Positions 6,976 to 9,305 of a stretch of 38,845 nt of DNA are shown piece after piece. Origin of the DNA: Candidatus Poribacteria bacterium (GTDB taxonomy: Bacteria; Poribacteria; WGA-4E; GCA-2687025); contig VGLH01000021.1 of the NCBI GenBank assembly GCA_016866785.1, positions 1 through 38,845 of the forward strand. The letters run 5' to 3'. The notes beneath the pieces are model-generated. The model was not told the origin of the DNA. It made no database searches and saw nothing but the letters and a program-made list of their open reading frames with translations. A program made the position numbers and the translations under genes. Every line of letters starts with the position of its first letter. The stretch's first letter is position 1.

Positions 6976-7890
6976 CTATCGACCCGTCCGCCTCGTACGA
7001 GACGAACGATGTTCGTCGCCTTCGGTTGACGTGTCGCCCGGAAGCTGGAACACGCTCGTGCCCCGGCCTCGCCTCAGCGAGCTCCCTTGAGCGTAGGCTT
7101 CCAGTGCGCCGAAGATTGCCTCGTGAGTCAGTGCCTCCCACGGGTGGATCGTGGCGTAGAGCGACGAAAACGCTTCGATGGCGGCGGTCGGTCCCAACGT
7201 GGTCAACAGCCTTCCGATACTCTCACGGAGCCATCCCTCCAGGTCGTCGTATACGCGCGAGGCGTCCAGCCGCACGGGCGGCTTGGAGGTCGGGACCCAC
7301 TGACCGGATTGCCGCTTGAACCGCGCCCGACCCCAACTGCGGGGCTCACGGGCGGGCTCACCGATCTGAATGATCTCCCGATCCAGGAGGATGTACTCGA
7401 CCACATCCATGGGGAGCCCGTGATGGAACCGCACGATGTCTTCGGTTTCGCGGACGTAGTGGGTTCCGATTTCCGCGTCTCGCCGGTCGATGACGACGAC
7501 GACCATCCCGGAGCCTGCTCCGTACAGGCGCGACCTGCCACGCGTGTACCCATGGGCGATCCGCGGCTCGAACGTCGTCCAGAGCCCACCCTTGCTGAAC
7601 AAGCCGTGCTCCGCGATACGCTCTGCGCGTTCCCCGGTCGTGCCGTGCCACAGGACCCATGCGTCGGAACCGAGCTCGGCGTAGCGGGCGCTGCCAGAGA
7701 CGCCGTGCATGGTCGCCCACAGGTTCAGGTCCGCTACGCCGGCGATTTGTCGACGAGTGCTGAAAGCCAGAGCCCCCAGAGTCGCGTTCCAGGAGGTCTT
7801 TCCACGCGGCAGGTAGTCTAGATCGCCGAACCCGTCGCGAGCCGCGTGCCGGTTCTTCTGCCATATGGTCGGGTTGTCCGCGACGTGCAC
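6976..7890 (-). CDS. Uncharacterised protein with ADP-ribosyltransferase-like (Tpt1/PARP-like) features
   Basis: A 304-residue soluble protein I do not recognise by name. Residues 80-135 read LWHGTTGERAERIAEHGLF, then GGLWTTFEPRIAHGY and GMVVVVIDRR. This resembles the H-G-T ... helix-G-L ... x-T/S-x-x-x-x-A-x-x-Y ... beta-strand layout of ART-fold enzymes, with H82 and Y115 as candidate NAD-binding residues; the third catalytic residue is not obvious. The C-terminus is basic and low in complexity. The start is a GTG with only a weak ribosome site (AAAGGG), so the N-terminus is uncertain. It sits downstream of tRNA-Val and tRNA-Asp on the same strand and upstream of the TPR gene. Function is inference only. 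Confidence 0.7.
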   Translation of the reverse strand: MHVADNPTIWQKNRHAARDGFGDLDYLPRGKTSWNATLGALAFSTRRQIAGVADLNLWATMHGVSGSARYAELGSDAWVLWHGTTGERAERIAEHGLFSKGGLWTTFEPRIAHGYTRGRSRLYGAGSGMVVVVIDRRDAEIGTHYVRETEDIVRFHHGLPMDVVEYILLDREIIQIGEPAREPRSWGRARFKRQSGQWVPTSKPPVRLDASRVYDDLEGWLRESIGRLLTTLGPTAAIEAFSSLYATIHPWEALTHEAIFGALEAYAQGSSLRRGRGTSVFQLPGDTSTEGDEHRSSRTRRTGR

Positions 7891-7994: not shown

Positions 7995-8073
7995 TGGCGG
8001 ACCTGACGGGATTTGAACCCGCGATCTTCTGCGTGACAGGCAGATGTGTTAGGCCAGGCTACACCACAGGTCC
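7995..8073 (-). tRNA. tRNA-Asp (anticodon GTC), CCA encoded
   Basis: On the minus strand: acceptor GGACCTG/CAGGTCC, D stem GTGT/ACAC, anticodon stem TCTGC/GCAGA with loop CTGTCAC giving GTC, and T arm GCGGG-TTCAAAT-CCCGT. The discriminator is G, as expected for Asp, and CCA is encoded at 7995-7997. Confidence 0.96.
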
Positions 8074-8094: not shown

Positions 8095-8169
8095 TGGTGA
8101 GCGGAACAGGATTTGAACCTGTGACCTACGGTTTGTAAGACCGCCGCTCTACCCCTGAGCTACCCGCTC
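8095..8169 (-). tRNA. tRNA-Val (anticodon TAC), CCA encoded
   Basis: On the minus strand: acceptor GAGCGGG/TCCGCTC, D stem GCTC/GAGC, anticodon stem GCGGT/ACCGT with loop CTTACAA giving TAC, and T arm ACAGG-TTCAAAT-CCTGT. The discriminator is A and CCA is encoded. It is the first gene of a Val-Asp tRNA transcript, 21 bases upstream of tRNA-Asp. Confidence 0.96.
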
Positions 8170-8209: not shown

Positions 8210-8238
8210 AGTGTAGTCGGCTCGACTTGGGGTGTCAA
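8210..8238 (-). promoter_or_regulatory. Sigma-70 promoter of the tRNA-Val/tRNA-Asp operon
   Basis: Read on the minus strand, TTGACA (8233-8238), a 17-base spacer and TACACT (8210-8215) place the start ~35 bases before tRNA-Val. It faces away from the ssrA promoter at 8886. Confidence 0.72.
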
Positions 8239-8255
8239 GCGAATCGCAGCGTTCG

Positions 8256-8875
8256 GGACGGCCATTTCCTGAATGGGAGGGACGGCGGCATCATGATGAT
8301 TACTGGTCTCCATAGGAGTCATCATGATGGAATCGCTGCCGTCCCTCGCGTTCATGCGATCTCGGGTTCCCGATGCGCCAGCAGTCGAAAGTCACTCATT
8401 CGCTCCCGTCGTTGCTGCTTCACGCGATCATGGCAACGTTGTGCGGATGTCGTGGTCCGACGGCGATGGCTCAGTGGGGTCGCCTTCACCCGGAACTGGT
8501 CCGCGAGATGGCGTATCCGAGCGGCACGATGCCGTGCGCAGCGACGTTCTGCCGTGTCTTTGCCCGTCTGGACTGGCACAGCCTTGTCACAGCGATGGGG
8601 GAATGGGCGGAAGCATGGCTGCAGCGAGAAGAGCCTGCCGCCGAGCGTTCCCTCGAGCGTTCCTCGGTGCTGCAAGGATTGGCTGTCGATGGCAAGACGC
8701 TTCGGGGAAGCCGCAAGCGCGGAGGCAAGGACTGCCATACGTTGACGACGCTGACCCATGGGCTAGGTCTGACGCTAGGTGAATCTGCGGTGGATGATCG
8801 GACCAATGAGATACCCGTGGCTGTGGCTCTACTGCAACGATGGCTAGGGATCTGTCGCTCGTGAAATGGCCGTGC
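8256..8875 (+). mobile_element. Internally deleted ISAs1-family insertion element with both ends kept
   Basis: The left end GGACGGCCATTTCCTGA (8256-8272) and the inverted right end (8859-8875, reading GCACGGCCATTTCACGA) match at 14 of 17 positions. A 7-base direct repeat, GCGTTCG, flanks the element at 8249-8255 and 8876-8882 and fits a target duplication. Inside is an ISAs1-type transposase remnant whose second half is missing. A further inverted repeat inside the left end pairs CATCATGATGA (8289-8299) with TCATCATGATG (8319-8329). The element separates the divergent tRNA and ssrA promoters. Confidence 0.8.
8324..8864 (+). pseudogene. ISAs1-family transposase remnant, frameshifted and C-terminally truncated
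   Basis: The visible frame from 8373 gives ~163 residues against the family's usual ~370. It shows the N-terminal associated domain (HSLPSLLLHAIMATLCGC) and the first DDE aspartate region LAVDGKTLRGSRK, then VDDRTNEIPVAVALLQ. It ends abruptly: the stop codon (8862-8864) falls within the right terminal repeat, so the later DDE residues are gone. The expected N-terminus (MESLPSLAFMRSRVPD, from ~8327) is in another frame and joins the main frame near 8373, implying a small indel. It cannot encode an active transposase. Confidence 0.85.
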
Positions 8876-8885
8876 GCGTTCGTTC

Positions 8886-8914
8886 TTGTAATGGGTCAAC
8901 GGGCGCGGTATCAT
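8886..8914 (+). promoter_or_regulatory. Sigma-70 promoter of ssrA
   Basis: TTGTAA (8886-8891), 17 bases, then TATCAT (8909-8914). The predicted start lies ~30 bases before the mature tmRNA end at 8952, leaving a short leader for RNase P removal. Confidence 0.6.
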
Positions 8915-8951: not shown

Positions 8952-9305
8952 GGGGGCGTACCGGTTTCGACGGGAGTGTAGGTCGGGCAGGTTGCGTGTC
9001 GAGGTCTCCGCAGGCCTCGTTAAACAGGCGGAAACATTACAACTGCCAATACCGAACTGGCACTCGCAGCCTAGATAGGCTGCCGTCCGGCGCTGAAGCG
9101 CCTACCGGAGGCGACCCGGGCGACGCATTCGTAGGCTAGGTGACACGGCGATGTCCCGACGTCATGTCACGACAACTCAGGGACTGGCGGCACGACTCCC
9201 CGCCCACGGGGACACGTCGCCGCGAGAACCAAACGTGGGAAACACACGTAGTGACCCGTTCGGCGACGCTTTCGGACGCGAGTTCGACTCTCGCCGCCTC
9301 CACCA
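8952..9305 (+). ncRNA. ssrA: Transfer-messenger RNA (tmRNA), one-piece
   Basis: The 354-base RNA rescues stalled ribosomes. The ends pair as an alanyl-tRNA-like acceptor, GGGGGCG with CGCCTCC, followed by discriminator A and encoded CCA (9303-9305). The T arm is GCGAG-TTCGACT-CTCGC. The tag frame ends in codons for NTELALAA and a TAG at 9072-9074. If GGC at 9027 is the resume codon, the tag is GGNITTANTELALAA. An in-frame TAA at 9021 limits how far upstream it can start. The ...ALAA end is the typical ClpXP-type degron. Confidence 0.96.

Follow-up and report, generated by a model that had tools for sequence, protein, structure and literature searches.

An internally deleted ISAs1-family remnant between the predicted divergent promoters of a tRNA pair and ssrA

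In the insertion sequences (IS) IS10 and IS50, structures in the start region provide protection against read-through. A fold blocking transposase translation has likewise been described in ISPpu9 (PMC8450116). For the ISAs1 family, our literature searches retrieved no description of start-region folds, and the consulted portions of PMC5006887, PMC3606827 and PMC4265352 contained nothing on ISAs1 structure. Here we describe a relic of this family that lies between two housekeeping RNA units in a Candidatus Poribacteria contig; the window that we analysed is the whole stretch of 38,845 nucleotides. The relic is flanked by the following features:

7995-8073, minus strand: tRNA-Asp(GTC) gene
8095-8169, minus strand: tRNA-Val(TAC) gene
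8210-8238, minus strand: predicted tRNA-Val/tRNA-Asp promoter, TTGACA-17-TACACT
8886-8914, plus strand: predicted ssrA promoter, TTGTAA-17-TATCAT
8952-9305, plus strand: tmRNA gene ssrA, tag ANTELALAA

Directly downstream of tRNA-Asp, an ORF of 304 aa (window 6976-7890, minus strand) had no Pfam match.

The 1.5 kb that we scanned for promoters contained three promoter-like matches, against 0.2 in shuffled sequences, and two of them were the promoters listed above, the ssrA one being the weaker match (9/12). The tRNA-Val/tRNA-Asp pair is kept in three related genomes (G002, G004 and G005), and all three have a promoter before it at a similar distance (TTGACA-17-TAAGAT in G004 and G005, TTGACC-17-TATCTT in G002); this equivalent layout supports the left promoter. 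Upstream of ssrA, a sigma70-like TTGCCC-17-TATAAT occurs in G004 and G005. The two -35 boxes of the window are now 647 bp apart, and removal of the element together with one 9-bp duplication leaves exactly 20 bp, in agreement with the ~20 bp estimated in the sequence-only reading of this locus. That reading had also placed the insertion between divergent promoters without damage to either, and both predicted boxes are indeed complete, so that the predicted promoters on the two sides are intact despite the insertion. Insertions hitting either of them would presumably have been selected against.

The element occupies 8257-8874 on the plus strand (618 bp), its ends having been placed by homology with intact relatives (tips CAGGGC...). 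Those relatives measure 1213 bp in C13, a copy in the remnant's own genome, and 1228 bp in G003, a genome from the same family of organisms as the window's host. Their transposases have 383 aa in both cases, and that of a third intact relative, in G004, has 396 aa. The ORF at 8373-8864 matched the N-terminal domain DDE_Tnp_1_assoc (PF13808) with 61.8 bits, well over the cut-off of 32.3. The ISAs1 transposase model NF033564 gave 69.1 bits for the remnant fragment, 0.9 bit short of its cut-off of 70, and 211-217 bits for the three intact relatives (G003, C13 and G004). Pfam searches found both PF13808 and the DDE catalytic domain (PF01609) in these three proteins, and no PF01609 in the remnant fragment. 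Since PF01609 has been deleted, the remnant is a relic of the ISAs1 family and not a working member of it; it is internally deleted and has kept both ends, as first proposed from the sequence and now supported by comparison with the relatives. Its parts are:

8248-8256: left copy of the target duplication, 9-mer AGCGTTCGG, core GCGTTCG at 8249-8255
8257-8274, plus strand: left terminal inverted repeat, tip GACGGCCATTTC
8277-8347, plus strand: predicted hairpin, arms 8277-8299 with 8319-8329 and 8336-8347
8324-8864, plus strand: pseudogene of the transposase, beginning at 8324 or 8327, with a frameshift near 8375 and its stop at 8862-8864
8857-8874, minus strand: right terminal inverted repeat, tip CACGGCCATTTC
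8875-8883: right copy of the target duplication, 9-mer CGCGTTCGT, core at 8876-8882

As first aligned, the outer repeats match at 14 of 17 positions, with GCGTTCG adjoining them at 8249-8255 and 8876-8882. Such an arrangement (an inverted repeat of 14/17 or better with an exact 7-bp repeat outside it, 300-1600 bp apart) is found once in the window, compared with a mean of 0.03 per window in 60 random windows drawn from a dinucleotide model. This 14/17 match stands, and the boundaries drawn in the sequence-only reading had to be moved, as the element starts one base further in at each side. The left (GACGGCCATTTC) and right (CACGGCCATTTC) ends are each identical to those of G003 at 14 of 18 positions; their tips, GACGG and CACGG, differ from the CAGGG start measured in the relatives of the class and seen in G003. 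In C13 the tips are 18 bp long and identical at both ends (CAGGGCTGTTTCACGAAT).

The pseudogene carries two lesions. The segment 8376-8840 corresponds to residues 18-164 of the G003 transposase (59% protein identity) and is followed, at the junction LLQR/WLGICRS (8840/8841), by an in-frame deletion that skips residues 165-376, a stretch of ~0.6 kb including most of the catalytic domain. In addition to this deletion, the start of the gene is frameshifted: the first codons, MESLPSLAFMRSRVPD, read from 8327, are in a different frame from the rest of the ORF, which places the frameshift near 8375. The stop codon lies inside the right repeat, and the transposase had accordingly been described from the sequence as cut off there; we rejected truncation of the ORF by the repeat, since the intact G003 copy stops at the same place, inside its own right repeat, and this is the normal position. 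The remnant resembles the ISAs1 family in its N-terminal transposase domain, its end positions, the stop codon inside the right repeat, the expected full length of ~1.2 kb and probably also the 9-10 bp duplications made by relatives of the class, and departs from it in the deleted middle of the transposase, the frameshift and the decay of both tips and duplication.

The flanking 9-mers, AGCGTTCGG and CGCGTTCGT, agree in register at seven of nine positions, that is, not perfectly. Across 32 loci of the class, among which one copy was examined twice, exact duplications were present at 18 (16 of 10 bp and 2 of 9 bp) and none was detected by the exact-match test at the other 14. C13 has a perfect duplication of 9 bp (GTTGGTTAC), the G004 element has nine of ten duplicated bases and G003 no clear duplication. 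Because relatives give duplications of 9-10 bp, we read the 7-bp repeat as probably what is left of a 9-bp duplication that has decayed at its edges, a genuine 7-bp duplication being the less likely alternative; GCGTTCG is present on both sides as originally noticed, and it is the length of the original duplication that probably differs. The register of these 9-mers also bears on whether the two flanks were ever contiguous. They could instead have been joined by recombination between two IS copies, and ssrA and the tRNA pair do lie on different contigs in all three family relatives in which both were found (G002, G004 and G005). We consider this origin very improbable, as a recombinant would show the 7/9 agreement in register by coincidence alone, the chance of seven exact bases being ~1 in 16,000.

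In the host genome assembly (95% complete, 291 contigs) we found this deletion in no other copy and detected no intact member of the subgroup with the same ends. The members of this subgroup that we identified were all non-intact: a left-end piece with different deletions on C199, a broken C-terminal piece on C37 and, on C63, a 34-bp right end identical to that of the remnant. This 34-bp end adjoins part of a different DDE transposase (PF13586, PF01609), at the contig end in C63 (locus L008 of G000, positions 1-208). The sole intact ISAs1 element of the genome, C13, is divergent, its tips matching the ends of the remnant at 12 and 13 of 18 positions. A DNA search of 97 genomes gave matches only in the own genome and in G003 (a full-length homologue, 63%), and a scan of the genome_contigs collection with the fragment produced 41 stretches fitting a pattern, none of which was confirmed. 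Repeats often break contigs and the assembly is a draft, so these absences are not final.

These data are pertinent to the suggestion, made in the sequence-only reading, that the element may be mobilised in trans by full copies, to be sought by their identical ends. With neither a copy of the same deletion nor an intact partner of the same subgroup in the own genome, and with C13 ending differently, such mobilisation is not supported. A related scenario is that the element arrived already deleted, as a MITE-like non-autonomous unit moved by an intact ISAs1. Like non-autonomous internally deleted IS and MITEs, the remnant keeps both ends around an internal deletion, most of a duplication remains, the identical right end on C63 indicates that the subgroup had several copies, and one intact ISAs1 (C13) resides in the genome. 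However, the remnant is single-copy, the pieces on C199, C37 and C63 are all broken and the tips of C13 fit its ends poorly, which leaves this scenario unlikely.

We regard it as very probable that an ISAs1 element inserted into the ~20-bp gap between the promoters, was tolerated there and, then or earlier, suffered the deletion and the frameshift that have left it as an immobile spacer. An ISAs1-family IS would have transposed into the interval between the -35 boxes of tRNA-Val/Asp (left) and ssrA (right), producing a duplication of ~9 bp without damage to either promoter. This would explain why the insertion was tolerated; we infer that it was close to neutral. The loss of ~0.6 kb (transposase residues 165-376), in frame, may have preceded or followed the insertion, and a frameshift would have broken the start of the gene, the order of these events being likewise inferred. 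The result would be an immobile spacer devoid of a demonstrable function of its own. It might alternatively have been co-opted, for instance to insulate the promoters or, as upstream sequence, to alter tRNA or ssrA output. Polymerase footprints at promoters 20 bp apart are expected to crowd each other, and the remnant separates promoters that would otherwise lie at precisely that distance. Nevertheless, it bears no sign of conservation, with its gene frameshifted and its duplication decayed, and this genome was the only one in which we saw the tRNA-remnant-ssrA arrangement, making co-option very unlikely. No empty site was found in the relatives searched, none of them a congener, and a pattern scan of the genome_contigs collection for a close ssrA gave no match. 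The remnant is old, dead and ordinary genome debris in a tolerated gap, and its insertion is an example of survivorship, in which two housekeeping RNA units tolerate a mobile element that sits in the bases of neither promoter.

A more useful by-product of this analysis concerns the left end of the element, where the start codon ATG and some of the sequence adjoining a ribosome-site-like GGAG fall within the 3' arm of the predicted hairpin. The RNA fold of 8257-8370 had a z-score of -5.6, and none of 200 shuffles was as stable. We aligned the left ends of four elements only, those of the window, C199 (L007), G003 (L057) and C13 (L010); G004 (L078) was left out because it could not be aligned. 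In this four-sequence alignment 93.5% of the 92 cells were paired over 23 pairs, and seven of the 23 pairs had changed on both sides, a number reached by one of 500 shuffles. Six slid controls, with the 3' partner shifted by 1-3 columns either way, gave no two-sided change, a comparison that favours the tested structure, since this derives from the fold of the window itself. Several of the changes affect the third base of codons in the coding arm (those for LPSL/VPSL), with matching changes in the non-coding arm. The hairpin is probably a translation-sequestering fold, a known strategy of IS.

We then compared the energy needed to open the start region across ISAs1 elements, in 40 rows obtained from 45 loci after dropping seven (those without a 5' end or whose start could not be located) and adding the window and C199 by hand; some elements are included twice (L078/L093 and L143/L158). 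Opening was as costly in at most 2 of 60 shuffles for 20 of the 40 rows. It was not exceptional for C199 (22/60 shuffles as high), G003 (12/60) or C13 (6/60), and it fell below the shuffle mean in six rows; these cases count against the hairpin reading. The 40 rows averaged 11.5 kcal/mol; 57 other ORF starts, used as a control, had a mean of 8.3 (sd 3.9, maximum 26) kcal/mol. Of twelve plasmid-borne elements that we also compared, L170 had an internal annotated start and was excluded; in five of the remaining 11, at most 2 of 60 shuffles were as hard to open, and three of the 11, from Stanieria, Nostoc and Ruminococcus, showed no start-region effect. In many of the other ISAs1 elements, though not in every one, a hairpin of a different design conceals the ribosome site.

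Two further features of these elements were observed in passing. Ten loci from other families in the class (L082, L083, L085, L086, L087, L089, L090, L092, L117 and L127) have, in addition to the hairpin at the ribosome site, another long and nearly perfect one upstream of it, in most cases immediately preceding a TATACT-like box. In L141, L143, L156 and L157 (G200, G134 and G208), the ISAs1 frame changes at the same place in several contigs, at an A-run/G-run (AAAGGGG..CAC) near position 160 of NF033564; slippage, a programmed frameshift or mere run-length variation are possible causes.

The folds of the remnant and of the other elements can be brought together in one proposal, which we advance tentatively, at somewhat under even chances. 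ISAs1 elements at large may silence themselves by a left-end hairpin that covers both the ribosome site and the start codon, and the 5' arm of which would track changes in the coding sequence; read-through transcripts from outside would stay translationally silent, those initiated within the 5' arm at an internal promoter would escape, and the relic would simply have kept the fold. A covarying start-codon hairpin in ISAs1 is likely a small novelty, the evidence for it extends across a little-studied IS family, and it makes the self-control hypothesis a simple and directly testable one. As in ISPpu9, IS10 and IS50, a stable predicted fold encloses the ribosome site and the start codon in the remnant; compared with the folds of those elements, that of the remnant reaches across the start codon as far as the first codons and appears to have been kept by matched changes in its two arms.
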